Assembly (NCBI RefSeq): GCF_000003815.2
Contig: NC_049986.1
Coordinates: 18,347,049 to 18,411,048, forward strand
Source of the DNA: Branchiostoma floridae
Taxonomy: Eukaryota > Chordata > Leptocardii > Amphioxiformes > Branchiostomatidae
Direction of reading: 5' to 3'
Length of the DNA stretch: 64,000 nucleotides
Part shown: piece after piece, positions 4,218-57,700 of the stretch
Position numbering within the stretch: the stretch's first letter is position 1
How the letters are laid out: each line of letters starts with the position of its first letter
The notes under the pieces: generated by a model
The model's database searches: none
What the model was told of the DNA's origin: nothing
The model's input: the letters and a program-made list of their open reading frames with translations, nothing else
Translations under genes and position numbers: made by a program

Positions 4218-4245
4218 CTTCCTGTGCTGACAGTTGTGTAATGTA

Positions 4246-5918: not shown

Positions 5919-6115
5919 CTACAGTATATCGGCGACGTCCTCCATCTTACAATCCAGGAGAATCTGATAGAGTTTAGCGACCGTGGCGTCCGGCCGTTTG
6001 TGCCAGTCGGCCAGCATCTTCTCAGCGGGGTTACTCCTGGCCTTGTTGTGCTCCCAGAGCTGGGCAGTCTGCGGCAGGACCCCGATCCGTTCTGCTACCA
6101 GCTTCCAGTCTTTAC
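5919..6115 (-). CDS. CARD/Death gene exon 6 (Death domain and stop)
   Basis: The acceptor CCCTCCGCAG precedes 6115. The exon encodes GKDWKLVAERIGVLPQTAQL through ADWHKRPDATVAKLYQILLD and ends VADIL then TAG at 5919-5921. The tryptophan in DW and the ADWHKRP motif are Death-domain hallmarks. Its 3' half is the source of the array at 4640-5918. Confidence 0.8.
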
Positions 6116-30554: not shown

Positions 30555-30776
30555 CTAGTGCACACCCACACTGCTGTCTTCCACCACGTTGCTTGGTAGC
30601 GTGCAGGGCTTGGCTCTCGCCACGGAGGAAGTGACAACGGTGTCCTGACCCGTGGAAATCCTGGGTGCCAGTTGCAGGTCCCGTACGGCGCCGTGCACAC
30701 CGTTTACCCGCACCCTTCTGTCCGCTACAGCGCTGGCGTATGAGGGTCTGTCTGAGGTCTGGTGCTGGTACCCTAC
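30555..30776 (-). CDS. RC3H1: Roquin exon 19: C-terminus and stop
   Basis: The acceptor CACCTCCCACAG precedes 30776. In phase 0 the exon encodes [20 protein letters not shown] through [20 protein letters not shown] to SSVGVH, then TAG at 30555-30557. A longer open frame on the same strand is out of phase and is not used. Confidence 0.8.
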   Translation of the reverse strand, partial: VGYQHQTSDRPSYASAVADRRVRVNGVHGAVRDLQLAPRISTGQDTVVTSSVARAKPCTLPSNVVEDSSVGVH

Positions 30777-33700
30777 CTGTGGGAGGTGTCATTGATGAAG
30801 GTTAGATATCCAGGTAATAAATAGGCAAGGTAAGGACCGGTTCACACTTACATACTTGAGTATATTCACATCTGTGTGAGTTTTGTATTGGTATCATTTT
30901 GGCTAGATAATCAGGCTGCACAACAGTGGTCAACAGAAAAAAAAAGTTTTCTCCATAAACTTTACCTAAGCCAAAAGATGTCAATACATAACCTGCAGTT
31001 ACTTATTACAAGCTACTGGATAGAAGTTGGAAATAGACTGTTCAAACAGCATCCCGTGCCTCAATATGATATACAGTAAAAGACACCAAACTACACAAGA
31101 CGTTAAGTGAATAGTCGTGGGCATTATATGTGTATATTTCTATGTATATATTTCTATTTTTCGTTTCCAGAAACAGCCTGGCCAGGTCCTGGTTTAGAAA
31201 TGTGATGATAGCCCCTCACTGTGCCCATCTTACTATAAATATATGACTTTTGACAATTTTACCGATCCTTACCGAACTTAAGGCTAATTTTCGTACCTTT
31301 TAATGGCCATAACTCACTAACGGTACGCACGATTTAGTTAAAATAAAACCATTCGGTTTCTTTCATCAAGACCAATGACATCAAGTTCAAAACGATATAA
31401 AGGGTTTGAATTTTTTGTGTTATATACATTTCTATTTTTAGTTTCCACAAACAGCCTGACTGTACCCACCTCACTGTACGCCAGGTGCTCGGCCAGGCGG
31501 CGATCCCGTTCTTCCTGGTCCAGTCTCTCCCGCTCCTGGGCCAGGCGCTGCTTGCGCTCGGCCTCGCGTCGGAGCTGGTACTCGATCTCCGACAGTTCCT
31601 CCGCCTTCTGCGCCTCCAGGGCCACACGGTAGTCGTTCGCTTCCTGAAAAGTCAGACAGAAATTCACTTTCTTTGTATTGCATAGACAGTACTAGTACTA
31701 GGGGTGGGCAGTTTTCCATGTTGACCAGCCTCCAGGGCCACACCGTAGTCGTTCGCTTCCTGCAATGTCCGGCAGAAATTCAGTTTCGGCAATGAAGATT
31801 AGACATCCAGATAAGATATGCCAAAAAGCAGATACTCAAGCAACAGTGTCACTGACAAAAACAACAGATCTTGTTTGAAATGTCTGACTGTTTCCAAAAT
31901 CATATCCAGTGACTCGAGTAACTGTTTTTTGTTGAGAAATCCAGTTTGTTTGTATTGCATACCCAGTAATAGGGGTGGGCATTTTTTCTGGTTGGACCAG
32001 TCTGAAAATGGACCTGAAAAAAATCAGTTGACCGGATCTTGGACCGATTAGTAATTAACAGATAATATCAGCAGGCGTTAACATGTTTTGGTGCTTACCG
32101 GTTTAAGAAAATAACAAGAGCGAAGTAGAGTAGGGTTCATATTCATGTCTACGAAGTTTCTATGGTCAAATTTTGCGTTTAAGCTGCATATCTGGGCAGA
32201 TTTATTTGATCTATTCACCCTGGGATGATTCCTACTAAGTGTGGGTCCTGGTTATATTTCCTGGCACATTTTCAAATCTCTCAAAAACAATTTCTTTCCA
32301 AAACACTCCAGTGGATAGAAATAGATCAGTAAAGAACAAGAAAAGGAAAAAAATGGCATAAGTTGAACTGACCAGGTCGTCTTGAACAGCATGTCTGTTC
32401 CTGTCGGTAGAATCGGAGCCCGGCTTGGACCGGTGACCGTTCTCAAACTCCTGAAGCTGGCGAGCGATCTCGAAGTCGCTGGCGGTGTCGTCCTGACTTC
32501 TGGGCAGGGTCTTCCACTGGGAGAGATAGGACAACAAATATCCATGAAAACATGTAGTTTCATCAGGTTGGTATGTCACTGAATTTAGAGACTTTTTTTA
32601 CACAACCACTGCTTTATTCTCACCGACAATTCGGTGACTGTCTGTCACCTCCTTCAGGGCAATTCTGACTGGTTCACATTGTACTGCAGGACAGGTGTTG
32701 CTGCTCACAGTTCAGATGCGGTCACAAAACATATTTACATATGTACAGACAGCCTTTGTGACCACATTTGAACATTACATTAAATCTGTGTTTGAAATTT
32801 GCACTGTCTATGTCCAAATCTCCATTCCTCTCTAAGTGGGGAAGTGTACATGGCAGAGAACTAAGAACAAAGGACAACTATACACAGTTCAGATGCAGAA
32901 CGTCAACAAATATTCAGACTTCGTGACTAAAGATACTGTAAATGCAGAAATGTTTGAGGTTTTTCGCGGTGGCTACATTTTCCATGATACATGTAGCTTT
33001 TCTATTACAGTCTATGGTGCTACTGCGAAGTTAAAACCGCCACAAAAACTCAATTTTCCCGCTAACGCTAAATTGAATCCCCGTGAATTTAAATGCATTT
33101 ACAGTACTTTATACTTCCTTCAATAGGAAAAATTAAGAGACCAACAACACTGGCCAGGTGATAGTAGAGCTGGTCACTAGTAGAAGATTGGCTAACAACG
33201 AACAAATTTTCAGCAAAGCATTCAAGTGACTACTGTGGATTTGTTCATGACGTATAATTTGCAAAAAAAATTAATGCTGTAAGTTAGTAAATGTTGTAGT
33301 ATGGATAACATCAGCAATTTCTGGGATACTGAGACTTTGGTAAGTAAATTAGTGACAACAATTCAGACTAATATGTTATCCACCTGTTTGTCTTCTCAGT
33401 ACCAAACTTTCAGGGTCTCTGAAAATCTAACTTGTTCTAGGAACTAAATGTTTAAGGTAGCAGCAGGTGCATGTAAAAAAAGTCTGTGATTTATTTGTTA
33501 TCAGTAATGGTAAGTTAACATTATGGTCGTTACCGTGAAAACCCTGAATATAAAGGGACATTGAAAAAATCAGGAATTACAGTATATGTTATCCACCTGT
33601 TTGTCTTTCATTCCCACCCTCTGCAGCTCTCTCTCCTTCTCGCGAATGCCAAGTTCGATCCGCTGGAGCTCGTACGCCAGCCGCTGGTCGTCGTTCAGCT

Positions 33701-36700
33701 GTTTGTCGGACACGCTGCTCTTCAGCCAGGCCAGCGCGTCCTGCTCACGTTTCAGCAGCATGGCGTTCTTAGCCTCCTGTAACAGGCACAAGATTTAAGT
33801 TAGGGATGTGTCCATGTCTCTTTTGGACCTGCTGTTCTAAAAACAATAAGAAACTGGATGCCCTAAAGATGCCCATACCCTGGGGAGCACATCCTCTGAC
33901 AAGCATAAAGTTCTGATTGACCAGGAATGCTACTAGTCTTCAACTGTCTTAAGAAAGGTTGCACCATCCACATTTCAGGTTGCCCCATTTCCAAGTTACT
34001 ACTTATCCATTATCTTTTCTTCCAGTTACAAGTATGTTTTATCTCATCAAGTAATGAACACAAAAGCTTATGCACATAGTGGGGGAAAAGCAGTGTTCCA
34101 ACTGCAAAATTTCAGGTTGCGCACTGTACTATCTGGGTTTAAAATTAAGTTGCACCAAGCAAAATGTGGTTAAGTTTGCAACTGAGTATTTCAAGCATTT
34201 GAAAAATCAGGAACAGAGGATGGGCTAACAACTCCTCCCTATAAAAATCTGTTACTGAAACAGCATGGAAACTTGTTGCCCTATGTGCCACTAGGTACTA
34301 CAAGTCTAACAACAACAATGACAACAACAACAACACAAAACCCCTGACCTGGATCTGCTGTTGCTGCTGGTGGGAGTTGATCTGGTTGTTGATCTGTCGG
34401 AGCTCCAGCTTCAGCTGCTCTCGCTCTACCGTGGACGTGCCCGAGGCACGCGACGTCACCACCGGAGCGCTTGGGAGATTATTTATTCTGCAGGGTAAAG
34501 AATTATGCCTCATTCTCCGATGAAAACCAATTCTGCATTTGCTTAAGTTGCTTACATAGGTATAGTTACATGACATGCGCCAGCTCAGGATAGTTTTTCC
34601 ACTGATGGAAAAGTTGCCACACACACAAACACCCGTAAGTAAACAATAAAAACTACGTAACCATACATACACAATAATCCAACAAAGTCACGAATTTGTG
34701 TCATCCTCATGTATGCAGCTATGATATAAGAAAATATGTTTTACAATCTGCTGTCTTGAAATGTTATTCAGGGCTCGAAGATCATTTTTGGGATTAGGTG
34801 CACTGGTGCACCCAGGTTAAAAAAATGGGTGCACCAAAAAATTTTTGGGTGCACCACTTAAATTTACGTAATGATATAATAATAAAACTTAGTTACAAGC
34901 CATCAAATTCTTAAACAAGTACCATAACAGACATTTTTATTATCTTTCTAACACTCAGATGTCAAGAATATGATGTATACTAGTATTTTGATATTTTTAC
35001 ATATATAAACATAAGAAAATATTTGGGTGTACCCTGTGCACCCACAGAAAATAATTGGGTGCACAGCTCCAATTTTGGGTGCACCTGGGTGGACAGACCC
35101 CAGTATTTCGAGCCCTGTTATTCAAACAGTAGCAATCTGTGTGCCAAACATGATTATATAGCTCTGTTCAAATAACTCGTCTTAAAGCAAATTAGTACAT
35201 ACGAATTGTGTCTGCTACATGTATGTCCTGCCCAGGGCTGTCTCCAGCTTTAAATTTTTTTTCCGTCCCACTCATTGTTTGAGAGCCCATGTTGTTGATT
35301 TTCTTGGTTAAATATGTCTGTTTAAGCTTATGAAAGTACATTTCCAACAGCTTTGTTTGGAATAGATGGGGTAAAATTATTTTCTGTTCCAATTCAACAA
35401 GCAAATTTCTGTCCCAGGACGGAAGGACGGATGGGTCCTGAAGACAGCCCTGGTCCCTTCCCCGATTCAGACTGAGCTGGGACACCTTCACCCAACAAGC
35501 ACCAGTTCTCTGAGTTTCCCTTTCTTCAAACCAGGTAAGGATGGTGACCAGGCAAGCTTGCAATCATCTTGAAAACTCCAATTCAATACATCTGTACTCC
35601 ACTTAAGCATTGTACAACATGGTCAGGTAAAAAACATAAAAGTCAAAATAAAAGCTAGCATTGCGTTGCTGGCTGTTAGTAGCAACAACACTGAGGTCAG
35701 CTGCCTACAAATGTGGCAACGAGATTTGACAACATTCACTTCACGTCAGAGCAATCAAGCAAAATAATGTTAATGCCAGCCAATCAAAGCAACTTAAAAC
35801 TAAGCCACAGAATAGCGCTTAACCAGTTTCTCTATCCGTGTGTTCAGCATTTGATTTAATGCATCTGAGAAAAAACAAAACACAATAGGGAATTTTTCAA
35901 TTAGGCTATGTCAATCAACTACGAAGGGATTCTTACTACCAGTAAGAAAGCGTTTGACGTTTTGTCAACGTTCAAAACCTGTCCATTTCTGCAGAGGACC
36001 TGGGACAGCCTTGGCAAGGGTTTTACCTGGACTACCATCCCTTCCTGGGGCCATGCAAGAGGGAGGAGGGAGAAGTGAACTAACCTAGTGTTTTGGGACG
36101 GATCCTCTCTGAAACATACACAAGGCCGAGACAGGTCAACAGGTTGATTGATTCACACACAGCAAGTGTCAAATCAAAAGGCAAACCAGGACTGGTGACG
36201 AAACAAACCGGCAAAGACACGAGGAAGGAAAGCTCGACTTCGCAAGACTGGCCTTACCTGTCGGTGATGTTCCACACGCCGCGGTACATGCTAACCGCCG
36301 GCTTCTTGGCGTATCTGCTATCCTGATCCTCCGGGTCGGTGGGGCTGTGGACTCGCTCGTGCGTGGACTGGATCAGGTTCTCCGTGGACTTGACGGACAC
36401 AGTGCTGGTGTTCCCCGCGATGGCGTTGGATTGGTATGGTCCGGTGTTCCGTATCATGGCCCTAATTCAAATACACATTTTGTTGTATATTAAATAAGTA
36501 CACAGTTGATTTATTTCATTTTACTTGACGTATGTCCATCACTGATTTTCAGTTCACCCTATGTTTGCTTTTTTTTTAGTTCAAAGTTTGTTTGTTTGTG
36601 CCTTTATTTATACTCGAAAATACTTCATTCGGCCATCTGGGCCGCTTTTTGTGGAGGTTGAGCTTGAAGAAGTATCAGGGGTCAAATAATAATGTTAATA

Positions 36701-39700
36701 CAAAAATTCTATCGATAATACAGAGAATAGAGGCATGCTAAATAAATAATAATAATGAAAACAAATAATATTCATTAGCTCGTTAATTCCACACTCGTTC
36801 GTCTATCGCTTCGGTGTTGCTAGTTTTTTGAAAGTTGAGGTTGCAGCTCTAGCGTCCGGTACGAGTTATGATTTGTTGTATATTTCTGTTGTTATATTTC
36901 TATATATTTTAATATGGACTCAAGGAAGACTAGTGATTTATTACTAGCAAAGTTGGACAAGTCCACTAGCCCTATTGTCCAGGGCAAGAGAAAGTGCTGA
37001 TCGGGCAAGTGCATGACCTACCCCACTTGCCGATTGAGCAAGTAACATTTTTCCATTGAGTGAGATTTTGACATACTTGTTTCTATTAACAGTCATGACA
37101 TCAAGCAATGGTCAACAGAGAAACATAGAGGCAATGATGATAATTCCATTGCTGAAAGTGAAAATGCATATGGAAGTGACATTTGAATTTGGGGCAAGTG
37201 AAAAATTGGTTTGGGTAAGTAAATTTTTTATGTATTTGCCCAATTGAGTGAATTTTAGAAAACTTGTCCAACCCTGACTAATAGAGATCTCAATAAACCA
37301 AACCCACCTGGCTGTGCGTGAGATGGGGCCGTACTTGGACACCATGGGGGTGCTGGAGAGGGGGATGAGTCCACTCTACTATATACTCCAATCCAAACCA
37401 AACCAAACCAAACCAACCTGGCAGTGCGGGAGATGGGGCCGTACTTGGACACCATGGGGGTGCTGGAGTAGGGGATGAGTCCACTCTACTATATACTCCA
37501 ATCCAAACCAAACCAAACCAAACCAACCTGGCAGTGCGGGAGATGGGGCCGTACTTGGACACCATGGGGGTGCTGGAGAAGGGGATGAGTCCACTCTACT
37601 ATATACTCCAATCCAAACCAAACCAACCTGGCAGTGCGGGAGATGGGGCCGTACTTGGACACCATGGGGGTGCTGGAGAAGGGGATGAGTCCACTCTACT
37701 ATATACTCCAATACAAACCAAACCAAACCAAACCAACCTGGCTGTGCGTGAGATGGGGCCGTACTTGGACACCATGGGGGTGCTGGAGAAGGGGATGAGG
37801 TCGTCCTCCAGCTCCTTGGCGCGCTCGAGCGTGCGGCGCTGCACCTCCTGACGGATGAGGTACCCCGGCTGGTCCTGCCCACGCAGGTAGTTCAGGTCCT
37901 CCCGTACCAGGACCTAAACATTTCAAAATAAATAGATAGCTAAATAAATATCTGCCATTAAGCCATTAAGTACCCAATTTTTGTTTGAGTACCTCCTCGA
38001 ACACAGATCCCCCGTTTTGCGTCCCTTCTGAAAGGCGAATTCTTGGTCAGGCTACAGCATCTTCGTGAATTCTCGGTCGGGCTACAGCACCCACTCTTCC
38101 TTGGTGGTCCCCATCCAAGTACTTGCCAGACTGCACGTTGCCTAACTTCCGAGATTGAGGGGATTGGGTGTAGTAAGAAGTAATATGAAGTATATAAAAT
38201 AGTAATCACATGATATAATGATATACATGAGTTAAAATGATATATAATCTGACATTTACATGCTGCTGTTAAGTGTTAACAGCTGGTCCTACCCACCCAG
38301 GTAGTTCAGGTCCTCCCATACCAGGACCTAAACATTTTTAAAATCAAGTTTAAAATCAACTGCACAACGATTGGAAGTCAGGTACAATGTATGGCAAATA
38401 ACGTATATGACTAACAACTATTAACTATCTACACTAGTGTACTAATAAAAACATTGAATACAGAATATGGTGGCACAATGCATTTTACATTGCTATGACA
38501 TGATTTCTCTTCTGTACAGCATTATATATGTTCACCTAGGTGGACAGATATGGATTCAAGACACGATAGAAGGATATTGAATATTTCTCTACTTGTTTTA
38601 GGTAATGTTGTTCTGTTGTTACATATGATCAATAACCTCTGACTTCCTTGATTCATTATAAAATTTTTTTTTTTTTCGCCTTGCCCGTCCCATTTTTTTC
38701 TGAAAAAATCCGAGGAGCAACAAATAAATTTGGTGTGGTCTAAACAAACAAAAAATAAGGACCTGTGCCAGCGCCTCGTCCGAGAGGCGGCGGATCTCCG
38801 TCACGAGCGAGCTCTCTGTCGGGTAGTTCCTGCTGAAAGACGACTGCGAGCTGGACACCACGGTCGTCGAGGAGGAGGAGGGAGTGGCCGTGTGCGGCAT
38901 GACGTCCTTCGTCTGGATCAGGGTCCCGCTCGACCACGGGCTGTACTCCTTCGCCTGCTCTGTGCTGTCCGACTGCACCTGTCAAGAATTGCCAATAACA
39001 AAGAGTAAGAACATGAGACACGAACTCTCCTTTGTTCCTAGAGCAATCAAATACTGTAAATGCATTTAAGTTTGCGGGGATTTAATTTCGCGGTAGCGGG
39101 AAAAGGACTTTTCGTGGTGGTTTTAAGTTAGCGGTAGCACCATGCATTGTAGTCTCTTACTGCCATAAAAAAATATTCGTGGTGATTTTGAATTTGCGGT
39201 AAAGCAGCTCTGTCACGCTGACGATATCTGTGGCTATAGTATTCTGTTGTCACTAGTATTGCGCATGTGCAGAAAAATACATGCAGTTAATTTTTTTCTT
39301 GTAAATTCTATGTGCATTATTGCTTACCGACATAAGTTATATCCATTTTGTCTCTCCGTCATTGCTATATTTAAATCAGTGTTTAGCCTTTAAACAAAAT
39401 GTGATTATGCATGTTTGTAAATTTCGTAATAACTTTTACTTAGGATTTTATGGAATGTAATCTATTGGCACATTTCATGTGGCATTTACAATGTTATTAT
39501 TGTTGGTCACTGCATGCGGAAAAGAAGTCAAACCCATCAAATAGCTTAAGTAGAAATAGATTTAGATCAGTCATTATTTCCTTTTGATTTATCTATGAGT
39601 ATCAATTTCCTTCTTTGTCAAGCATGATTATGTATACCACTACTGCTTTACTTTGTATGCAATTAGCCCTCGGGCATGAATTTGCAATATAAAGATTATC

Positions 39701-42700
39701 ATTATTACCTCGCCATCCTTTTCCGTCTCGTCAGCGTAGTCTGGCTTCCGCGGGAAAAAGGGAGTGGCTTTGGAGTTGAGGGTGGAGGGGGGCGTGTGTG
39801 CAGGGGAGCTGTAAGGGGAGGGGGAGGGGGAGCGCGCCACGGGCATGCAGTGTGCAGGGTGGTTCAGCTGGGCCAGGAGTTCGTCCCTTCTACGCTGTAG
39901 GTCCTTCAGACTTTGGCTTTGTAGGCTCTGTGGTGCAAACAGGGAAACAGAGTCAATTCTGCAACAAATTAGCATTTTGTATGTTGTGATAAATAAAGCC
40001 TCTCACTCAAAGCATGTAGCAGTTAATTATAATAGGTCCTCCAGGCTTTTGTTTTGTAGGTTCTGTGGGGGCAAAACAGGGAAACAGAGTCAATCCTCCA
40101 ACAAGTTAACATTTTGTATGATGTGATAAATAAAGCCTCTCAAAGCCTCTCTCTTAAAACATGTAGCAGTTAGTTATAGTAGGTCCTTCAGACTTTGGCT
40201 TTGTAGGCTCTGTGGGGCAGACAGGGAAAAACAGAGTTAATCCTCCAACAAGTTAGCATTTTGTATAATGTGCATGTAGCAGTTAGTTATAGTAGGTCCT
40301 CCAGGCTTTTGTTTTGTAGGTTCTGCGGGGTTAACAGGGAAAACAGAGTCAATCTTGCAACAATCCCCTGCTCTTTAACTCAAAAGTTAATCTATGTTGG
40401 TAGAAGTAATTTTTAAGTTGGCAGAACTGTTGTTTTTTTCCAATTTTTTTTAGTTCGCTCTCGTTCCAGAAGTTAGCATTTCGTATGGTGTAGCAGTTAG
40501 TTAAAGTTTAAGTCCTTTCTGCTCCAAATGGTGCATCGGGCAGTGCCCATCTCAGGAGCAGGAGCAGGAGCAGGAGCCTAGTCTACTGGTAGTGTTGTGT
40601 ATTCTTTTCTAACTGCTGAGTGCTTAGGCCTAGGAAAAAAAATGTTGTGTTTCCTGTTTCAGTCGTGAAAAAATTAGGGTCGGTAGGTAGGGATTATCTT
40701 TTTTTTCTTGTATTTTTTTTAGGCTGGCCAAAATTCTAGTGATACATATTTACAATACAGTTGAACAAAGTAAACTGAAATGTATGATGACACTTGTCTT
40801 TCAATGTCAAACTTTAATTTTGTGCATGATAGATACATTTATCCTTCATTAGATAGAACAAGCAGTGTTTTACTTTAATAGGAAGCAGGCTAAACAAAAA
40901 TTCTAACTGGAAGCTATACTTAGTGACTCCACTGCCCACCCAAAAAAAAAGTCTAGGGTCGGCAGGTTTTTTTAGGGTAGGTAGGGAAACAGGAAACACA
41001 ACATTTTTTTTCCTAGGCCCTACCAGAGAAAACACCGTGACAGTACTGTTTTTAAAGCCTTTCATATGACTTAGCCGGGGATGGAACTCATAACATACAA
41101 AGGCGAACAATCTACTTACTTGGCCATTGCTTGACTTGATATATATGTAGCAATAGCCTGGATAAATCAAGATTGTAACAGCTGTCCTACATTTTTTTCT
41201 TGTTGAAAAAATCTAAAACTGATGAAATTTTAATCTTACCATTGGCTGTGACATGCTCCCCTGGTAAGGCCCTTGGTACTGGTGCACCATGCCGTCGTAG
41301 TCAGCATATCCGCTTCTGGTGGAGACTCTGACAGGCATGTCGTCCCGAAGGGAGTACCGCGGCCAGGCCCCCCTATCCATGGGCGGGGCGTACTGCTGTG
41401 GCGGGTACTGGTTGGCTGGCGGCGGCGGCGGGTAGATACCGTTTCCGTAGCTGTCCTGTACGTACGGTCGATGGGGGAACGGCGGCGGCGGCGCGGGGTC
41501 CTGGGGACGATACGACGCTGGCGGGGGATACTGCGCTGGATACGGAGGGGTCATGGGAGGTGGCGGTGGTTGTTGCGGCATGTACTGCGGGTGTTGTGGA
41601 GGGTAGTAACCGCCTGAAATAGACAAAGGGAGAAAACGAGAGCGCAGTTAGTACCTCTGTTGTTCACTTTCACGGCAATCCATTTGCTTTCTTTGGATGT
41701 GAGAGCACCCGATCCAAAGAGGATTCTTGGTCTCATTTCACTTCAAACACTTTCCTATGGAAAGAAGTGTCACATGTCACGTCACAACCATACTTACCAA
41801 AAATATATATACGGCTAGTAAATAAACTACCCTCTCATCACTCAACTTTCACACAGCTGGAAAAGGAAGATATTTTTAAGTAGTACCATACCACAAAACA
41901 CGGCGGTGTTACGCAAGGATTAAGTGTAACAAAAACATGGTACCTACCTGATTACCTAATAAAGCTTACGTCTCACATGCTGTACATGGTCTCATCATCA
42001 CCATCTGGTGCTACACCTTAAAATTGATTGGTACAAGAAGAAGTGGTACGGTATGGTACGAGTAGGTAAGCAGCGCACGGTAACTTACTGACAACCCTTG
42101 GATAACCTGCCTCCACGGGCACCATCTGCACTTGCACTGTTTCCACCATGTAAGTCGGACCTTCTGCAAAACAACCCCATAGTCAACATGCTGGAACCAC
42201 GACACATACACAGCGGGTACGTCCCCTTTCCTGTCCTGAGTGCCTCACTTCTCTATACATACAATCAGGGCTCTAGCCAGCGTCCGTTTTTCCGTCAATT
42301 GACGGAAATTTGCTGCGTGTGACAGAAAAATTTTTAAACCAATCCTTGACGGACAAAATTCCTTGGTGGAAGGTACAGGCGGCTTGGGGACGCCGTCCAC
42401 GGCCGTAAAAGCCACACACTGTTTGTTTTGCTATTGTGTCGGTGCCCTTTCGCATACGATAATCTCATTAAAACCCGTTTTTCAAGGTCTCAGTTCAGTC
42501 TCCCTAACTCATGGAATAGTGTTTACGCGACAATGGGAATTGGCTGACGGAAAAAAATTTCGAGCTGGCTAGAGCCCTGCATACAATAATGTACTACGCT
42601 GTTTTTCCTGACAACTTGGTTCATTGGTTGATCTCATCCAAGTAGCTGTCTTACATGTGTATCTGCAGGGCTTTGGGACCAAATCTAGCTTATACATACA

Positions 42701-45700
42701 AATGTACTTTACTGTCTGTGCTGACAACTTGGTTCATCGGTTCCAAGTAGCTCTCTTATCTGTAGCATTTCAGGGCCAAACAAGTCTTGTAGAAGGGCAT
42801 TTTGACAGTCACAAAACTGGTCTATATACACCGTACAACATTTAAGACTATACATACAAAATTAATGTACTATGCTGTCTTTCTTGACAAATTGGCTCAT
42901 TGGTTCATCTCATCAAAGTAGCTCTCTTATCTGCAGTGTTTCGGGACCAAACAAGTCTTTTAGAAGCACCTTTTGACAGTCACAAAACCGGTCTACATAC
43001 ACTGTACAACATTTACAAATGTCATATATCTGATTGTGTCCTTTAAAATACAAAGACACACACTTTTTTTCGGCGGAAACTTTCCCATCAGTTCTTTTCA
43101 TGCGAAGAAACTTCTATAAATGAGTTTTCTCACACTATGATCTGAAAGACGAATGAATTAATGGTTGTAACTTAGGATAAAGACAAGGTAAGACATCTAG
43201 CACTTCCCTTGGTAGCGGTCATTCATTATGAGCGTATCATTTTCTTCAACAAATTTGTACTTCAGGGGTTCCAAAAATGCAATATTTCAACATCTCTGAC
43301 TAGTACTGAAGATCATACTGATACCACCAAGCCAAAAATTGGTTCCAAAACCAGTAAAGCTTAATGCAAGATATGCAATGAAGACACTACCAGTTTTTCT
43401 AAAAGGCTTGTCACAATCATGCTTCCATTCTACTTCCCATTCTTTCCTTTTGTGTTTCCCACTCAATCTGTGGTTCAGTGGCAAACACATTAGTCTCCAA
43501 TCTTACAGCTGCAGAATCATTCACGCAGCCATAGTGGTAACATCTGAATCACACAATCCATCTCCCTCCAACCTCCTTCTCTCTCTCTCAAACAGACAAG
43601 GGGTTGAAATTGCCATTGCAGGAGCTACAAAGTGTCCATGTAACAAAGTGTCATTCCCAGCTCAGCTGGTTCAATTCACAGCCAGTTTTGGATGTAGCCA
43701 CCAGCCTTTATTACAAGTTAGAAGACCAAGAAAATGTGCTCACAGTACCAATTTCGTCATGAGAGTTAACAAAACACACCCAGCAATTCCCCTATATTTT
43801 GTTTCTGTGGATATGGAACAAACTCAAAGGTAAGTTGGAAGTTACTAGACCTCTCATATTATCTTGGAATATGTTTATGAACTTTTTAAGCACGGATGTA
43901 CAATGCATGCTTCTTTGATGCTATTCTCCAAGCAGATGTTACAGTCAGGAGGCAGATGAAAGAAATCACACGCACAACTAGTCCCAAGACTGTAATCTCT
44001 ACTTGGAGAATACCTTGGCACAACATCGACACAACATATTATTGTCAGAGGAAGTGCTGGTATCATCTTACATATCATACTAAGTACCCAGTGGCTTGAA
44101 ACAAAAAAAAATAAATTTTGTAATGACAACAAGGATGTTCACAGGACATGTAGAATGAAATCTAAGGAAATGGCAATTTCAACCCCTGTATGCTCAAATC
44201 ACCTTTTCAGACCTTCAATCAGATCATCACACGGATCACATTATCGCAGATTCACTCCACACACTGAACACATCAGGTAAATACGCAGCACACTGGATCA
44301 CTCTTGCTCATTACCAGACATTCGCCTGTGACATGCCAGCAAAAGTTACCAACCGATTCACTCTTGACTGTTCAGGGCTCGAAATGCTGTGAGCAAATGC
44401 ACCTTTGAGCACCCAAAATTGGAGTTGTGTACCTAACTTTTGACAGTGGATGCACTGTTGAATAGGGTCACGTATGTGACAATACTATTGCAAAAATACA
44501 GCATATTTTGGTTTCAAAAAAAGTTACAAAACCTGTGTTGTATGATTGTGTTACATAATATACTTATTTGAATTCAAAGTTAGTAATAGAAGTTTGACTC
44601 AAGTTCTTAACACAGGGAGTAACTGTGTTCGATGTGCTACATAATACACTTATTTGAATTTGAAGTTACTTATAGAATTTTTGACTCAAGTTCACACAGG
44701 CAGTGAGGTTTTAGGTTATACTGATGTTCTACTTTACAATGTTCACCGAACTTTTTCTTCTGTGCACCTCAGTTTTAAGGTTAGGGGCTCAAGTGCACTT
44801 ATTTCCAAAAATGGATTTCTTGCCCTGACATTAGAGGTTGGTAACTTGCTAGGAACCCCAGCCAGTGCTAACACCCAGGGCCTAGAAAAGAAAAAAAATG
44901 TTGTGTTTCCTGTTTCCCGACCTACCCTAGAAAAACCTGCCGACCCTAGACTCTTTTGGGGATTACAGTCACATAGTTTCTAGTTAGAATTCTTATTCAG
45001 CCTGCTTCCTATTCAAGTAAAAAGTACTGCTGGTCCTATCTAATCAAGGATAAATGTATCCACAGATATTAACCATTATGCAGGAAATTGAAGTTTGACT
45101 TTGAAAATTTAAGTGTTCTCATGAAATTCAGTTTTTCTTTGTTAAACTGTATTGTGTGTATCACTAGAGTTTTGGTCAAATTAAAAACAAATCCATACTA
45201 ATCGACTCTAATCTTTTTCAGGACTGAAACAGGAAACACAACATTTTTTCCCTAGGCCCTACAGAAGAACCTGCTTGCAGCTTGCAGGCATGACACAAAC
45301 TGCAGGCCTGTTGAGTGAGATGTCAGCGCAGACTGTCACCATGTCTTTCCTTTCTTATGGAAATCCAAGAAAGGACTGCTATTTGAAATATTGTGAACTT
45401 TCTTTCCTACAATCATTTGAACATCAACCCAGTGCCATGTGGCAAGTTCTCTTTGAAAAACAACACATTCTGAATGCAACATTAATGCAGAGATATGTAG
45501 AAAGTCATGGAATTAATTTACTCAATCATTTAAGACTTCTGCGTATGAAATATGCACATCTCAACATTGAAAATGACCATATGTTCATATTTATCTTCAA
45601 GCTGTTTTTCTTTTTTTTTGTACAAAAATGCAAAGGAAACGAAAGAAAAGATAAGATAAGAGTGCAACACTTACGTTCAGGTGGCATTTCTGAGGGTAGA

Positions 45701-48700
45701 GGCTGTCTCATGGCGCCCCCTTGTGGCTGGTGATGGTACTGCTCCATGGATGCGACCCTGGGTGGGTACACTGCCTGTCTGCTGTACGAAGACGGTGGAG
45801 ACTGAGACGGTGGCATGTCAGGCGGCTCCCTCAGACCGACCCCACTGGTAAGGAGTGTGGGTAAAACAAACGATTAATATCTGTGTACGGGAATGGACAA
45901 CTGTAAAGGGAGAAATATTTCTGGTAATCTACCTTCACGGCAGGAAGAAAAGGGAATTTTGCATTATTTTAAGACTAAGTTTGCAGGAGCAAATACCGAG
46001 AAGAGGAAACGTTCTCAGTGGTTTTACTTTCAAGTTCCCAAGGTAGAGCCCACAGCCAAAAATGCGACCAACAAATGAAGATTTTCACTTTTACAGTACC
46101 CATTTTCAACCTGCACTTTGTATTAGAAAACGTATGCTTTGTGTACCACTACCAGACAGAAAGGTCTCACACTGCAGTGACTTACTTAGAACTGTGTTCT
46201 GAGACAGTCGACCTTGAGACCAGGCCTGGAGGTGGTGGAGAAGGGGGAGAGGACGTTCCCTTGGCGACCAGGGGGCTGCCTTTCTTCACTTCCCCCTTAA
46301 AGGAGGGAATCTCCTTTGTGGTCCCTTTCTCCACAGCTTTTCTGTTCCTAGCACGGTACCTGTACGGAACAGAATGAAAAAAAACAACTTTTGCGATGAA
46401 CAATTTTCAACACTTTTACCTTCACTTCAACACCGGGACTCTGCATTCATTTTTTGGGAATATACCAGCCACTTTAAAACTTGCACTGAACAACAGAACC
46501 TTCACATACCTAACCCAACGCAAATATCAGTGTATCCACAGGGAAATATCAGGTGCAAAACTCTAATAATTCTAGGTGCACAAAATTCCATAAGCATTTT
46601 TAGTCCCGAAAACGTAATCTTTTTTCATGGTTTTTGCATCAATTCATTGTAAAAGCAAAAATCATTTCATCACAGTTCCATGCAAACAGATGATAGCAGA
46701 GTTGATCCATGTTGCTCCCCTACCTGTACATCTCCTCATCGGAGTGTGCAAATGTGCAGTTGATGCCACGAGGGCAGCCGGTTCCGTTTCGGTTCAGGTC
46801 CCGGCACATGCTGGTCTTATATTTCCCACTTGTCACCTGGGGAAAACAAACAGTAGAGAAAAATTCAAACACTGGTAGCTGCCACAACATTCTAGTCTCT
46901 GATTCCTGGGGCTTTGAGGAGTTATTGGGGTTCTCACCAGGATTATTTCATGGGACATTAGCACGCTGAAGCCGCATAGCAAGCGGCGTAGGTGTGAGCA
47001 TTGAAGGGGAGCCTTTAACCCTAAGAAAGACTAACTCTTGCATCTTGAGGGACAATTCTAACGGAATGATAAGGAAAACATTTTAAACCTTTTTAGGGCA
47101 AGAGAAGATCAGAAACGCCTCCTATGCTGGTTAAAACACAGCATAAGGGCTCAAACCACAGCATAGGAGATACAAATCCCAGCGTAGGGGCCTCAACTAT
47201 GCAGCTAAAACCCTGCTGAAGACCCACTATCACCCTAAAACAATATTTCATACTCTTGGGGTGATTTGAAACAGATCATGCCCAGTTAATAGGAATTCTT
47301 CTTCTAACAGTGATGTACTTTTAAAAGTAAATCGGACAGATAGCCATTGAAAATTTTGAGGTACTTGTGTTTACCTTTAAAAGTATGTCACTGTTAGAAG
47401 AAAAATTCATATTAACTGTGCTCATACGTGACAAATGAATCTCTTCAATGAGATCACGCCCAGTCCTCACCTGTGCAGAGTCGCCCTTCCTGTTGCCGCT
47501 GTAGTTCTGGATGAAGTCCACCACGCCCTGCACCACCAGCTTGACCGCCTGCATGCCCTTCCGGGTGTTGTCCCACAGCGGCGTCTCGCTGTCCGGGCTC
47601 GGGTCGATCTTGGCCAGCTCGTCGAAGTACGGGCGCAGGCGCGACAGGTTGGCGGGGTCGCCGGAGCGCTGCAGGGCGATGACCAGCTCGTTCACGCTCT
47701 GGGCGAAGGACGCTGGCGTCTGCAACTGTGGTGGGTGAACATGACTTTGTAAGTGATCTAGTCTGTGTAACACAAGCTCTGCTGTGCAGGGATGTAACTG
47801 GCCCCTACCCGCAGAGGAGGCCGGCGGATGTTTGGCAGGCTGCTATAAGTGAGATTTAATCAGGCTATGTGTGGTCTATACTTACGATGGATTACATGCC
47901 ATGATTTGAGTCCTGTCACATTTCTATCATCTAACATGTTTGCTACTACTACTACTAATAATTAGTTACTAATTCACATTTCCGTTCTTGTGTTCACCAG
48001 AATTTTGGAAACTTCATGTGACACAGAAAACAATAGTTCCATTGTACACAATGGATTTTCACGACTGCACATCTTCTCACATGATTATACAAGCAAACTA
48101 TACCTTCAGATATTGAATGATTTGTGACAACAAGGACGTTTGCCCGTTTCTAGTCTCTCCTAGCCAGTTTTGTCACATGTCAAAGCATATCTGCATCACG
48201 AGAGGAGAGTGGTTACCTTGTCGATGATAGACTGCATGTGAGACTTGTGAGCCGTGTCCCCGTACAGAAGAGAGGACCACTGCTCAGGAGATATCCTCAG
48301 TCCAGCCTCCATGGCTATCTGAACAATCTGAGCGTCGTGTTCTCTTCTCAGGCCGTCATATGTACGGAACTGTGGTAGAGAGACAGAAAAATCTGATGAA
48401 AACCAGTAACCAGCATTTGCTTTTAACAAATGAAGAATCTTTACCTTCCAATCTTACCAGAAATTGTCGTACTCACAAAAAAAGATACACGTACTAGAAA
48501 GGCCGACATTTGCTTAAGAGCAAATACAGCATATTTCAGCCATACCCCTTCCCACGCAACATTGGACTGTTCCAAATCACCCCTGCGCAAAAATGGAACA
48601 TCCTCCTAACAGTACATTATCCCCCAAAGTGGACTGTTATTGTGAATTGATTCCAGGTAAAAACAGAGCTTGCTTCTATTTTTCAGAAAATGACAATAAT

Positions 48701-51700
48701 CACACCTTCCATTCAGAAAATTTTCATCATGACTGAAAATTGTTGAATGACTTCATGTAATGTCATTAACAATTTTCAGTACAATAACTAGGTGTAAGTT
48801 TAAAAAAGTATAAGCTCCTTGTAATGTGGGTACATTTATTATTGCAGTGAACTTTTTTTATTCAAGTAGGGCATACGATTTAATAATTATCAAGCAGGTG
48901 CAGGTACTGTAGGAGCGTTTGTTTTCTTCAAGCTGTAAAACTGTTAAACTGTTTTACTTTGTATGCAATCAGCCATCGAGCCTATTCTTATTTTAGTTTA
49001 ACAACTTCCTGCCAGACCCGGAAGATACGATTGAACCTTGTTCGAGGATTTATTTTCGTCTGTCTGGTCAGTCTGTTCATACCCTGGCGCTGAGAGTGTT
49101 TTATTGGGCTGAAACTCTGGCAGTTTAAAGTTACTTACAATTTAAATGTTCAAAGTTTATGTCAAACAACAACAGCACTAGGAACACATACATTTGCTCT
49201 GGAGAAAATACAGCAGTTTTCGCAAGTTCGAATTCCAGTCCAGTCATAGAAATGTGGCCACTACAGACAGGTGGTCACTATAGAGAAAATGCTGATCTAT
49301 TGACTATGAGCCATACGTTACACATGATTTCAGTACACTGATCATTAGTTATATAAACATTGCACAGGTAAGCTAAATTGTTTAGATGTACAATTAAGTT
49401 CAAATAATTCTGAAGAGAAATATTGATGAGAAAATAATCATTCTCGCCACTGTCTAACTTATAATTACGTATCAAAACTAAACGCAGATTTTCTAACTAA
49501 CGCACCTTTCGCCGACTTCATCAAAGGATCGCCGGCTATCAATCAAACACGGCTGTTGATTAGACTTAGAGTTTCAAACAGTCATGTGCTGTGTGCCAGT
49601 TGACAGCGAACTTCATGCTACGTGATGTTTTACATTGCTTGGACCTTCTTTCCTACAGCGGTGCTTCTACAAAATATTTAGACTGTAACACTGAGTCCCA
49701 CATGTTTTATAGAATAGAATTTGACGCAGAACAGCGTTTTTTGCTGGGTATTTTTCTTGAAACATGTCCGTGGGAATATCAGCGAGGCGGCGACGTAGGG
49801 AAATCAGACCGTCAACAAAAGTCGCACGGCGGCTAACGGCGCAGCGAAGATACTAGCGCTATAAATAAGCGCTTCAACTAAGGATGGCAACCCGTACCAG
49901 GGTTCTAGCTAGTGCATTTTAGCATAGTGGGCCACTACGCTAAAATTTTTGACCACTACGCTAAAATAAGGGCCACTACGCTAATTTTTAACTAGTGTAG
50001 TGGTGCTTTGCTATCATTTGCTTGTTCAACAATGTCTAATCAATGTCTGAACAATGAAAACTGATGATATGCCACTCAAAACTGACCCCAAAATCCTTCA
50101 AATTACATGTGATGTTAACAGAGTGCCAACTTTTAACTCCACACCAATCTCCTGATTGATCGCTTCACTACCATGCCATTCCCACTACGCTAAAATAAAA
50201 TCCTGGCTAGAACCCTGCGTACAATATTTTTGTATACTGTTGAGCTAAGTAAAGTTTGTTGTTTATGAGGTTTTAGTTGTCTTTGAAGCTTTGACCCGAA
50301 ATATTTTAAAGTCAAACTGCTGAAGAGAAGTAAGTGACTGCTACGATTATCGTAGATATGGCCCTAAAAAAACTGATAAAAGAAGCCTTCTCAATAGTCT
50401 AAAATGCAAGAGCTTCCGGGGGGGGCTTCGCCCACCTGGGTCCCCCCCCACAGTGGCCCTGCCCCTGGACCCCGCCAGGGACATTCGGCGGCCCCCGGCC
50501 CCCTGTCCGACGCTTTGAAAAAATCCTGGAGAGAAGTCTGTACGGCCTGAGTCTTCAAGTTAACGTATTGTGTGGTCCCGCTTATGAATATTAATTAGCC
50601 TTCGCTTTCCTCTTCGCTGATTGGCTGAACCATTAATTGAATTAACTCTTCCTGCCGGCTAGACGCAGGTGCAGATGTCGGCTCTGTGGGGTGAACGTCC
50701 GAAAGGTCATGGCATGGAGAACGAAAGAAAACCAATTTCCCCTCAAAAAAGTGCTGTAATTAAGCCTTTTACAGTACTTTATGCCAAAAATTTTACTTGG
50801 ATCATTTTACCAACTATCTTATGCCTATCTATACCAAATGTTACTCATACCAGGGTACAGGGGTGCAAAACATACCGTTATAAGACCGTCAACAACAGTC
50901 GCACGGAGCTAACAGCGCAGCGAAAATACCATCGCTAGCGTTTCAACTTCGGATAACAAGTTATAAGTACTGTTGAACTCAGTAACTTTAAAGTTTGTTT
51001 TTAGTTGCCTTTGACAGTTTGACCTGAAATAGTGTTACGCTAAACTCCTGAAGAGAAGTTAAGTGACTGCTGCGATTATCATAGATATGCCCCTAAGAAC
51101 TGATACAATATAAAGCCTTCTGAATAGTCTAAAATGCGAGAGCCTTAGGCGGGCTTCGCTCCCCCTGGCGGGAACACTGCTATATACGGGATTATGAATA
51201 TTAATTAGCCTTTGGCCTCCTCTTCGCTGATTGGCTAGGTCTTTCATTCAATTAACTCTCCGGCTGACGCGCACAGGTGTGGCTCTGTGCGGGGTCACGG
51301 AAGGTCACGTCAGGAGGCCAAAAGAAAACAAATTTCCCCTCAGAAAAGTGCCAAAATTAATCATTTTAAAGTTGTTTATGTCAAAAATTTGACTTGAATC
51401 TTGTTACCAAGTATCTAATGCCTATCTATACCAAATTTCAGGTCATTTAATTGTAATACCAGGGTACAGGAGCCAAAAGTGTCCTTTTTTGGTCAAAAAT
51501 TGGCCAAAAATCGCAAAAATAAGCATTTTGCTGCACTGTACACCAAAAGTGTTATTGAATTTATATGAAGGTATTATCAAGGCACATCTGTGTCAAATTT
51601 CAGCTCATTCGGTTGCAATACCAAGGTACAGGAGCCAAAAGTGTCCTTTTTTGGTCAAAAATTGGTCAAAAAATCGCAAAAATAAGCATTTTGTTGTACT

Positions 51701-54700
51701 GTACACCAAAAGTGTTATTGAATTTATATGAGGGCATTATCAAAGCACATCTCTGTCAAATTTCAGCTCATTTGGTTGTAATACCAGGGTACAGGGGCCA
51801 AAAGTGTCCTTTTTTGGTCAAAAATTGGTCAAAAAATCGCAAAAATAAGCATTTTGTTGTACTGTACACCAAAAGTGTTATCAAATTTATATGGGGGCAT
51901 TATCAAGGCACATCTCTGTCAAATTTCAGCTCATTTGGTTGTAATACCAGGGTACAGGGGCCAAAATATACAGTTTTGGTCTAAAATTGACCAAAAAATC
52001 TCAATAAAATCATTTTAGAGGCAGATATGAAAAAAATGGGAAAAAAGCATCAAGGTATTGGCCCACTCTACCCCTGTGCCGAATTTCAGGTCATTCGGTC
52101 CAGGAACGGCGGAGATGAATCACTTTGAAGATTTGTCAGGAGAAAGAAAGAAAGTAAGAAAGAAACACTAGAAAGGCCGACATTTGCTTAAGAGCAAATA
52201 CAGCATATTTCAGCCATACCCCTTCCCACGCAACATTGGACTGTTCCAAATCACCCCTGCGCAAAAATGGAACATCCTCTTAACAGTACATTATCCCCCA
52301 AAGTGGACTGGTATTGTGAATTGATTCCAGGTAAAAACAGAGCTTGCTTCTATTTTTCAGAAAATGACAATAATCACACCTTCCATTCAGAAAATTTTCA
52401 TCATGACTGAAAATTTTTGAATGACTTCATGTAATGTCATTAACAATTTTCAGTACGATAACTAGGTGTAAGTTTAAAAAAGTATAAGCTCCTTGTGATG
52501 TGGGTACATTCATTATTGCAGTGAACTTTTTTTTATTCAAGTAGGGCATACGATTTAATAATTATCAAGCAGGTGCAGGTACTGTAGGAGCGTTTGTTTT
52601 CTTCAAGCTGTAAAACTGTTAAACTGTTTTACTTTGTATGCAATCAGCCATCGAGCCTATTATTATTTTAGTTTAACAACTTCCTGCCAGACCCGGAAGA
52701 TACGATTGAACCTTGTTCGAGGATTTATTTTCGTCTGTCTGGTCAGTCTGTTCATACCCTCGAGGCTGGCGCTGAGAGTGTTTTATTGGGCTGAAACTCT
52801 GGCAGTTTAAAGTTACTTACAATTTAAATGTTCAAAGTTTATGTCAAACAACAACAGCACTAGGAAATGTGGCCACTATAGACAGGTGGTCACTATAGAG
52901 AAAATGCTGATCTATTGACTAGGAGCCATACGTTACACATGATCATTAATCATATAAACATTGCACAGGTAAGCCAATTGTTTAGATGTACAATTAAGTT
53001 CAAATAATTCTGAAGAGAAATATTGATGAGAAAATAATCATTCTCGCCACTGTCTAACTTATAATTACGTATCAAAACTAAATGCAGATTTTCTAACTAA
53101 CGCACCTTTCGCCGACTTCATCAAAGGACCGCCGGCTATCAATCAAGTTAGAGTTTCAAACAGCCATGTGCTGTGTGCCAGTTGACAGCGAACTTCATGC
53201 TACGTGATGTTTTACATTGCTTGGACCTTCTTTCCTACAGCGGTGCTTCTACAAAATATTTAGACTGTAACACTGAGTCCCACATGTTTTATAGAATAGA
53301 ATTTGACGCAGAACAGCGTTTTTTGCTGGGTATTTTTCTTGAAACATGTTCGTGGGAATATCAGCGAGGCGGCGACGTAGTGATATCAGACCGTCAACAA
53401 AAGTCGCACGGCGGCTAACGGCGCATCGAAGATACTAGCGCTATAAATAAGCGCTTCAACTAAGGATGGCAACCCGTACAATATTTTTGTATACTGTTGA
53501 GCTAAGTAAAGTTTGTTGTTTATGAGATTTTAGTTGTCTTTGAAGCTTTGACCCGAAATATTTTAAAGTCAAACTGCTGAAGAGAAGTAAGTGACTGCTA
53601 CGATTATCGTAGATATGGCCCTAAAAAAACTGATAAAAGAAGCCTTCTCAATAGTCTAAAATGCAAGAGCTTCCGGGGGGGCTTCGCCCACCTGGGTCCC
53701 CCCCCCCCACCCCACAGTGGCCCGGCCCCTGGACCCCGCCAGGGACATTCGGCGGCCCCCGGACCCCTGTCCGACGCTTTGAAAAAATCCTGGCGAGAAG
53801 TCTGTACGGCCTGAGTCTTCAAGTTAACGTATTGTGTGGTCCCGCTTATGAATATTAATTAGCCTTTGCTTTCCTCTTCGCTGATTGGCTGAACCATTAA
53901 TTGAATTAACTCTTCCTGCCGGCTAGACGCAGGTGCAGATGTCGGCTCTGTGGGGTGAACGTCCGAAAGATCATGGCATGGAGAACGAAAGAAAACCAAT
54001 TTCCCCTAAAAAAAGTGCTGTAATTAAGCCTTTTACAGTACTTTAAGCCAAAAATTTTACTTGGATCATTTTACCAACTATCTTATGCCTATCTATACCA
54101 AATGTTACTCATACCAGGGTACAGGGGTGCAAAATATACCGGTATAAGACCGTCAACAACAGTCGCACGGAGCTAACAGCGCAGCGAAAATACCATCGCT
54201 AGCGTTTCAACTTCGGATAACAAGTTATAAGTACTGTTGAACTCAGTAACGTTAAAGTTTGTTTTTAGTTGCCTTTGACGGTTTGACCTGAAATAGTGTT
54301 ACGCTAAACTCCTGAAGAGAAGTTAAGTGACTGCTGCGATTATCATAGATATGCCCCTAAGAACTGATACAATATAAAGCCTTCTGAATAGTGTAAAATG
54401 CGAGAGCCTTAGGCGGGCTTCGCTCCCCCTGGCGGGAACACTGCTATATACGGGATCATGAGGCCCCGCTTATGAATATTAATTAGCCTTTGGCCTCCTC
54501 TTCGCTGATTGGCTAGGTCTTTGATTCAATCAACTCTCCGGCTGACGCGCACAGGTGTGGCTCTGTGCGGGGTCACGGAAGGTCACGTCAGGAGGCCAAA
54601 AGAAAACAAATTTCCCCTCAGAAAAGTGCCAAAATTAATCATTTTAAAGTTGTTTATGTCAAAAATTTGACTTGAATCTTGTTACCAAGTATCTAATGCC

Positions 54701-57700
54701 TATCTATACCAAATTTCAGGTCATTTAATTGTAATACCAGGGTACAGGAGCCAAAAGTGTCCTTTTTTGGTCAAAAATTGGCCAAAAATCGCAAAAAATA
54801 AGCCTTTTGTTGCACTGTACACCAAAAGTGTTATTGAATTTATATGAAGGTATTATCAAGGCACATCTGTGTCAAATTTCAGCTCATTCGGTTGCAATAC
54901 CAAGGTACAGGAGCCAAAAGTGTCCTTTTTTGGTCAAAAATTGGTAAAAAAAATCGCAAAAATAAGCATTTTGTTGTACTGTACACCAAAAGTGTTATTG
55001 AATTTATATGGGGGCATTATCAAGGCACATCTCTGTCAAATTTCAGCTCATTTGGTTGTAATACCAGGGTACAGGGGCCAAAAGTGTCCTTTTTTGGTCA
55101 AAAATTGGTAAAAAAAATCGCAAAAATAAGCATTTTGTTGTACTGTACACCAAAAGTGTTATCGAATTTATATGGGGGCATTATCAAGGCACATCTCTGT
55201 CAAATTTCAGCTCATTTGGTTGTAATACCAGGGTACAGGGGCCAAAAGTGTCCTTTTTTGGTCAAAAATTGGTCAAAAAATCGCAAAAATAAGCATTTTG
55301 TTGTACTGTACACCAAAAGTGTTATTGAATTTATATGGGGGCATTATCAAGGCACATCTCTGTCAAATTTCAGCTCATTTGGTTGTAATATTAGGGTACA
55401 GGGGCCAAAATATACAGTTTTGGTCTAAAATTGACCAAAAAAATCTCAATAAAATCATTTTAGAGGCAGATATGAAAAAACTGAGAAAAAAGCATCAAGG
55501 TATTGGCCCATTCTATCCCTGTGCCAAATTTCAGGTCATTCGGTCCAGGAACGGCGGAGATGAATCACTTTGAAGATTTGACAGGAGAAAGAAGAAAGAA
55601 AGAAAGAAACATTACGAATACAATATATTTCACCATACTATGTATGGCTGAAATATAATTACGAATACAATATATTTCACCATACTATGTATGGCTGAAA
55701 TATAACTAACACTTCTATCCTTAATTCTTTTGGGCTAGAGAAAAATAGTGTATTTCCATTTACCTGAGTGATCCTATTAAAAAAAACTACCATCTTCTGT
55801 TTGGTTGTCTACTAGTGCTGGCAAGGAACATGAAAATTTTCAACATGACTTTTTAGTGACGAAAACTTGGTAGAATCCTTTTATAACATGCTTTCTTTAT
55901 TTTTACTGCAATAAAAATGTGTTTGTACAATTTATATCCGTACAATTAGAACAGGGTATTGAAAATGCCTTATTTCCATTTTCTGCAATTTTATACCTAA
56001 TTCACATCACAGAGCCTGTATTAGTCAAATTCCTGACTGAAAACAATCCAAAAAGTCTTTGGTATCCCACCTCTTCCTTGAGTTCCATGAGTGAGGAGTC
56101 TCCATCTCTCTTGTACACCTTGAAGCAGGAGGCCCTGTACAAGAGCTGCACCACGTGGCCAATGCTGGTCTTGGAGGCTTGGGAGAACTGCTTCTCCAGT
56201 CTCTGCACCACAAACATGACCAGAACCTTTCTGGACAGGGCAGAACCGTCCTCAAGAGCCAACAGGATCAGCTTCAGGGTTTCTTCCTGCATGGCTGAAA
56301 AGGGAGGCAATTCAACAGTTGTAAATCACAAACTTGTAAAGGCAGAGGGGAGATTTAACACTTTCAAACACATTATTCGTCAAACATGAGCTAGAAGCAA
56401 GTATCTTGTATCAGCTACCTTAATAAAATCTTCAAACCAGAGAGATCTACGGCTAGAAAGTCATTAAGACTTGCATGTTTTCTGTACTCGGTTTTTGGAT
56501 GTTGTCTCGAGTCTGGACCAGGCCAAGCGAACCAGTATCCACCTTTATCCATGTAGTACTAGCAGGCACATGAGATCACGTGGCGCAATCGGCAGCATGT
56601 TGGACTCAGGCCCAAGAGGTCCTGAGTTCAAATCCCGCTAAACGACTGATCTTGTGCCCTTGGGAAAGACACTTTACACGACTTTTTCCACTTCACTCAG
56701 GTGAAAATGAGTACCTAGCTTAGGCTAGAAACGTCCCTTGGATAGGACGTTAAATAACGACTGCGTTATAATGATCAACATAATGATCGTTGGCACTAAG
56801 GGAAGAAAGAGAAAGAAAGGCACGTACCTGGCCCCAGGAACTGGCACCCCCTGGCCCTGACTGCCGCCCACAGGTTCTGTGACAGTTGCTGTGGGTTCTG
56901 GTGCTGCAGAATCAGCTCCGTCACCGTCCGCTCTCCGAGAGATCGTGCCGCTCTCATGGCACGAGCTCTGCCCTCATCCTCCACCAGCTGGCAGTTGACC
57001 AGCGTGACCAGTTTACGCTGCATGGGTCGACTTAGAGTGCTGTTGTTTCCTGCTCCTCCTGGAAAAAAGAGAAAATTAACTGGTTTTGAATGTGATATTG
57101 AATGGATATATTAAGAAATATACTGAAGCCAAGTACACACAAAATTGTGCTCGAGATGTAACAATGCAATTAAACTCTATTATTTGACCATGAATAATCC
57201 CTTTCCTCAAATCACTGTTATGTAGAAATATGACCAGTTGCTATTTTGGATATAACATGACTTGTGCCATCAATTTCGCCAACACTTTGCTTTATAAGTT
57301 GTGACATCAAATGCAAACAAAATTTGTAAAACTAGACTTTAATGGAAAGGCAATATTTTTGAGAAAATGCACCATATTTCCCTCCTTTTCATAAAATAAG
57401 TATGAAATGGTCATAAATTATGCATATCAGGTGCTAAGTGCTACTCATATCCCCAATATGAAAATGTAAAAGCAGATGAAACAGTGCAACATACCACCAC
57501 TGAATGGCTTCAGGTACAAGGCCAGCTCCTCTATACACTCCATGGCATCCTCGTAATACTCCGTAAACTCGGTGACTCCCGCAACGCCGTTCTCCGACTT
57601 CTGCGCATCGCCGCTGACCAACTGCAGGATGGCGAAGTTGACGGGCAGGACGTCCGTGTCCACGGAGATGGTGGTCTGGTCGAAGGGACACTGCTTGCTG

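Follow-up and report, generated by a model that had tools for sequence, protein, structure and literature searches.

The Roquin gene and the array at the end of its exon 13

The window, by which we mean the whole 64-kb stretch of amphioxus DNA that was analyzed, carries on its minus strand a Roquin (RC3H) gene, whose coding exons we modeled from the splice sites. The model runs from 57837 to 30555 through 20 coding exons and 1269 codons; it has no internal stops, and the phases agree across all 20 exons. Pfam identified in the product both ROQ domains, the RING and the CCCH fingers, and residues 1-402 matched the solved Roquin-1 chain most closely (E = 1.1e-196), with matches to Roquin-2 chains as well. 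The shortest intron measures 149 nt, and the 19 acceptors read CAG (17) or TAG (2). The 20-exon model agrees with the first-pass annotation of this DNA, made by inspection of the letters, in the identity of the gene and in the number, 13, of the exon that bears the array described below. Outside Roquin, open frames at 3603-4397 and 5919-6254 (minus strand) resemble by eye a protein kinase and a death domain.

Exon 13 ends in 62 nt that, together with the donor that follows them, are present five times in tandem, once as the exon end itself and four more times in the intron (Table 1). Tandem Repeats Finder placed the array at 37295-37799, with a period of 110, 4.7 copies, 93% matches and a score of 884, and a repetition of ~100-nt units at this level of identity is far beyond chance. 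On the minus strand the donors follow positions 37738, 37628, 37528, 37418 and 37308, and the resulting spacings of 110, 100, 110 and 110 bear out the earlier description of five tandem copies 100-110 bp apart. The 10-nt difference in spacing comes from the number of TTTGG pentamers, of which the short spacer has two fewer. A common start sequence had also been proposed, and TATATAGTAGAG does lie before each of the four extra copies. The claim that every copy ends in the same CCAG/GTTGG donor holds for copies 1-4 (CCAG/GTTGGT) but not for copy 5, which reads CCAG/GTGGGT; this last copy adjoins unrepeated intron and has two variants in common with copy 1.

Table 1. Positions of the Roquin coding region, the exon 13 and exon 11 arrays and the single boundary copies in the window.
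Feature	Position	Strand	Basis
Roquin (RC3H) coding region	30555..57837	-	gene model, Pfam, solved-chain match
Exon 11 acceptor-side array; four units (three upstream copies and the real acceptor)	39897..40363	-	self-comparison; Tandem Repeats Finder, period 147
Single copy of exon 13 acceptor and first 46 nt; 415 nt upstream of the real one, 91% identical	38282..38347	-	self-comparison
Exon 13, 176 nt; enters in phase 0, leaves in phase 2	37738..37913	-	gene model
Array copy 1; last 62 nt of exon 13	37738-37799	-	sequence copies, gene model
Spacer 1, 44 nt; (TTTGG)n run and ATTGGAGTATATAGTAGAG	37694..37737	-	
Array copy 2; 62 exon-derived nt, then donor CCAG/GTTGGT	37628..37689	-	
Array copy 3; 62 exon-derived nt, identical to copy 2	37528..37589	-	
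Array copy 4; 62 exon-derived nt, one change from copies 2 and 3	37418..37479	-	
Array copy 5 (last); 62 exon-derived nt, donor CCAG/GTGGGT	37308..37369	-	
Spacers resembling spacer 1	37594-37627, 37484-37527, 37374-37417	-	
Exon 14; enters in phase 2	36258..36461	-	gene model
Single copy of exon 17 end and donor; 212 nt downstream, 80% identical	33371..33420	-	self-comparison, alignment
Single copy of exon 19 acceptor and first 32 nt; 116 nt upstream, 90% identical	31728..31787	-	self-comparison, alignment

Variation among the copies and their spacers

The 62-nt coding parts of the five copies vary at four columns in all and differ pairwise at 0-4 positions, in line with the few base differences first reported. 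Two of the four variable columns are synonymous and separate copies 1 and 5 from copies 2-4, whereas the other two alter a phenylalanine codon in copies 4 and 5. Copies 1 and 5 both carry A/A at columns 51 and 57, variants that are missing from the middle copies; there, copies 2 and 3 are identical and copy 4 is one change off. A single substitution and unequal TTTGG numbers are all that distinguish the spacers of copies 1-4. They are about as alike as the coding parts, and constraint on the coding sequence is not indicated. A recent origin or gene conversion had previously been deduced from the likeness of the coding parts. The copies are indeed nearly identical, but this likeness extends to the spacers. 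Because the coding parts are no better kept than the spacers, the similarity of the copies points to youth or homogenization rather than to selection on the peptide.

The spacer filler was also considered as a derivative of the intron flank, a candidate that we rejected. The whole spacer aligned with the flank better than 498 of 500 shuffles, solely via the TTTGG part; once this part was removed, 258 of 1000 shuffles aligned as well. A second copy of the filler was not found within the 64-kb window at up to 7 mismatches in 26. Searches for an RNA gene in the array returned no Rfam match at gathering scores across the whole window, and a tRNA search, set to the bacterial code, found none. A weak full-length likeness to 5S rRNA (21.2 bits; family cut-off 38) lies at 38079-38197 on the minus strand, between exon 13 and the duplicate of its acceptor, and is possibly a 5S-derived element.

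Other repeats in the window include a satellite-like array at 9991-12403 (~16.6 units of 145 bp, 93% matches) and two related arrays with a 163-164 bp unit at 51432-52016 and 54710-55461, in the long intron that separates exons 3 and 4 of Roquin. Two further arrays, at 8700-8873 and 22952-23132, have a similar 31-bp unit based on GAATTCTGCA. An exact 98-bp tandem duplication at 15375-15573 is either very recent or an assembly effect.

Duplicated boundaries elsewhere in Roquin

Self-comparison of the gene, combined with probes placed at all 38 of its splice sites, identified five sites with a nearby boundary-spanning copy at a score of at least 31: the exon 13 donor (74), the exon 11 acceptor (58), the exon 19 acceptor (48), the exon 13 acceptor (47) and the exon 17 donor (31). 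The sixth-best site scored 13. Two of the five boundaries, the exon 13 donor and the exon 11 acceptor, are duplicated as arrays and three as single copies.

The unit of the exon 11 array comprises a polypyrimidine tract, CAG and 31 nt of exon. Its three extra acceptors, each of them CAG, precede positions 40322, 40209 and 40062, and the real acceptor precedes 39927. Over its 31 coding nt, the copy at 40209 shows no difference from the real exon, but 9 of the 42 columns aligned immediately upstream do differ. A second coding version, which would specify a different 10-residue peptide, is present in the copies at 40322 and 40062, and the two versions alternate along the array. Splicing to any extra exon 11 acceptor (3/3) would lead to a stop after 11 residues, and use of the single duplicates of exons 13, 17 and 19 to a stop in every case (3/3).

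Local duplications were also observed outside the Roquin boundaries. In a neighboring gene, a 76-nt duplicate (23813-23888 and 24029-24104, minus strand; 92% identical, 216 nt apart) spans the apparent acceptor, read by eye, of a CARD exon. A three-copy duplication with a unit of ~170 nt, at 42580-43017 on the minus strand, is entirely intronic; thus, local duplication is not restricted to exon boundaries.

Likeness to the mirages of amphioxus

Tandem repeats across exon boundaries are known in amphioxus as mirages, and the founding paper is reportedly on Adh. Mirages are minisatellites that span intron/exon boundaries, with the AG or GT included, in units of 10-160 bp (PMC3087553, PMC3902484); differences in length between haplotypes or cells are a further trait of the type. 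They are described in Adh3 and in the globin genes BflGb6 and BflGb9 (PMC3087553), as well as in troponin C and PGBD5 (PMC3902484). The authors of the globin study report that the Adh3 and globin mirages leave splicing undisturbed, a statement that covers those with RNA evidence, and they call the mechanism that makes mirages unclear (PMC3087553).

By its anatomy, the Roquin array parallels the amphioxus mirages in each feature that was tested. The tandem unit is short, with a period of 110 (147 in exon 11) that falls inside the 10-160 bp range, and in both arrays it runs across the edge of the real exon next to it, taking in the donor and 62 nt of exon 13 in one case and the acceptor and 31 nt of exon 11 in the other. 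Splice signals lie inside the units, as GT donors in all five copies of exon 13 and as CAG in the three extra acceptors of exon 11, and donor and acceptor sides are both affected. A globin mirage has a homogenized center from which the edges are excluded (PMC3087553); the exon 13 array likewise has a homogenized center and divergent edges (copies 1 and 5), a match that four variable columns make a qualitative one. The Roquin case departs from the published mirages in the gene that hosts it, in the involvement of five of the 38 boundaries of one gene and in the pentanucleotide run within the unit. Searches of the openly licensed literature found no report of mirages in a Roquin gene, and those on exon duplication, splice-donor duplication and Roquin with amphioxus found no description of this array. 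We conclude that the exon 13 array is probably a minisatellite of the mirage type, a boundary-spanning tandem duplication that grew by unequal exchange or slippage.

The array probably began with a short tandem duplication that chanced to span the boundary between exon 13 and its intron. From its position, copy 5 would retain the original intron flank and probably the original donor, GTGGGT. The middle units would have arisen later, as suggested by the identity of copies 2 and 3 and the single change in copy 4, while the array grew by unequal exchange or slippage. In normal mRNA, exon 14 probably follows directly on copy 1, the end of exon 13, and the remainder of the array would leave with the intron. 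The real exon now ends in the lower rated of the two donors by mammalian frequencies (5.87 vs 9.46 for copy 5). Models of intron gain by AGGT tandem duplication (Rogers model; Hellsten 2011) also invoke a duplicated segment that holds AG/GT (PMC3443670). In Roquin, by contrast, the AG/GT was a working donor beforehand, and the mRNA can be explained without a new intron.

Special targeting of splice sites by duplication was a further candidate and lacked support, there being no solid excess over random intron positions (P 0.048-0.61, depending on the test design). Random placement of eight hand-chosen duplication loci, a set that left out the satellite arrays at ~49.8-55.6 kb and weaker pairs, gave 2.5 expected vs 5 observed at boundaries (P = 0.048). 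In the probe test, 5 of the 38 splice sites had a duplicate, compared with 10.5-13.7% of 1000 probes placed at random in introns (P 0.37-0.61); at the same threshold, 12.7% of 1000 random intronic probes have duplicates. After masking of the mirage zones, a duplicate turned up for 87 of 1403 intronic probes (6.2%), a background that gave P = 0.084. The conservation of exons keeps copies recognizable for longer, which biases such comparisons towards false enrichment. The duplication rate of splice sites is close to that of random intron positions, which fits duplication regardless of splicing.

Alternative readings of the array

The copies could also act as decoy or dual-specific AG/GT sites, either removing the array stepwise with the mRNA unchanged or diverting splicing to a downstream donor, with a premature stop and less Roquin as the outcome. 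AG/GT ends each of the five copies, as it ends the tandem units of the dual-specific arrays of UBC and VCX3A, and tandem AGGT arrays work in this dual manner in human UBC (PMC10809524). It follows from the sequence that the same AG/GT, if used first as acceptor and then as donor, would yield the ordinary mRNA. The sites scored well as donors with a matrix built from Roquin's own sites (8.82 for copies 1-4, the real donor included, and 10.76 for copy 5), above the 99th percentile (8.0) of 1451 unused intronic GTs. As acceptors, copies 2-4 reached 3.07, the 90th percentile of 1359 unused intronic AGs, but copies 1 and 5 just -0.92, and further AGs lie upstream within the unit. The units, moreover, are placed after the exon, their lengths of 100 and 110 nt are not multiples of 3, unlike those of UBC, and they bring in stops if retained. 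Extension of exon 13 to donors 2-5 gave a premature stop in 4/4 cases, entry at one copy's AG and exit at a later donor in 6/6 forms, and the three exon 11 decoy acceptors in 3/3; all modeled uses of the extra sites besides the 66-nt cassette considered below end in this way. Because five donors score well, with copy 5 above the real donor, some use of the decoy donors is plausible. Published mirages are reported to leave splicing undisturbed (PMC3087553, PMC3902484). On balance, we consider it unlikely that the array functions as a set of decoy or dual-specific sites.

It is very unlikely that the copies are alternative cassette mini-exons, each of which would add a 22-residue segment to Roquin, as the first-pass annotation had suggested. 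The frame arithmetic behind that suggestion is sound: a 66-nt segment that starts at TGG runs from phase 2 to phase 2, and with a GAG acceptor the frame is open to the end of the protein in 4/4 extra copies. If exon 13 were spliced to copy 3, 4 or 5, the intron in between would measure 144, 254 or 364 nt, which are possible lengths, so a single cassette addition is compatible with intron length. The needed GAG acceptor scores poorly (0.03 in copy 2 and -2.26 in copies 3-5), yet at a level compatible with use, for two real acceptors also score low (-1.64 at exon 13, 0.31 at exon 14) and the median of unused intronic AGs is -4.0. The suggestion is weakened by the acceptor itself, which has a G at -3 that none of the 19 real Roquin acceptors has, and by two other AGs at most 5 nt upstream, whose use would shift the frame and end in a stop (8/8). 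The pyrimidine share upstream is 0.375-0.44. Splicing from exon 13 to copy 2, or between adjacent copies, would require introns of 44, 34, 44 and 44 nt, vs 149 nt for the shortest real one. Tandem exon duplication also places tandem coding copies within an intron, but here 62 of 176 nt are copied and the exon 13 acceptor lies outside the unit. Thus, the array is probably not a set of new exons, and of the two origins first offered, the evidence favors the neutral duplication ladder and leaves the alternative-exon generator weak.

An assembly artefact, from collapsed or misjoined haplotypes, is the least credible reading: the globin authors called one draft version of a mirage cluster aberrantly assembled (PMC3087553) and the copy number of the PGBD5 mirage differs between two assemblies (PMC3902484), but the Roquin copies have private differences and an ordered pattern of edge and center, and the array fits a type that recurs in the same gene.

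Implications

As a mirage, the Roquin array is a further case of an already known kind, mostly neutral, and the Roquin peptide is not meaningfully repeated. A more active role, in which mirage units trade short tracts with the functional exon and thereby form a reservoir of exon-edge variants, is improbable. Fisher tests of short-tract exchange in five pairs of the exon 11 array gave P values of 0.037, 0.008, 0.77, 0.77 and 0.75, a hint only, as the pairs were picked post hoc. Exchange in the direction of the exon, if it occurs, could replace the coding sequence beside splice sites in blocks.

Mirages have been little studied. The presence of five boundary duplications in one gene and of one at a CARD exon within 64 kb suggests that they are common where present. 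Gene models in mirage-bearing regions need care: an annotation of lancelet PGBD5 made an exon out of mirage repeats (PMC3902484), and the mini-exon reading of the Roquin array takes the same step. Such arrays are natural tests of how the spliceosome chooses among near-identical sites, and they also test the idea that boundary duplications seed new introns.
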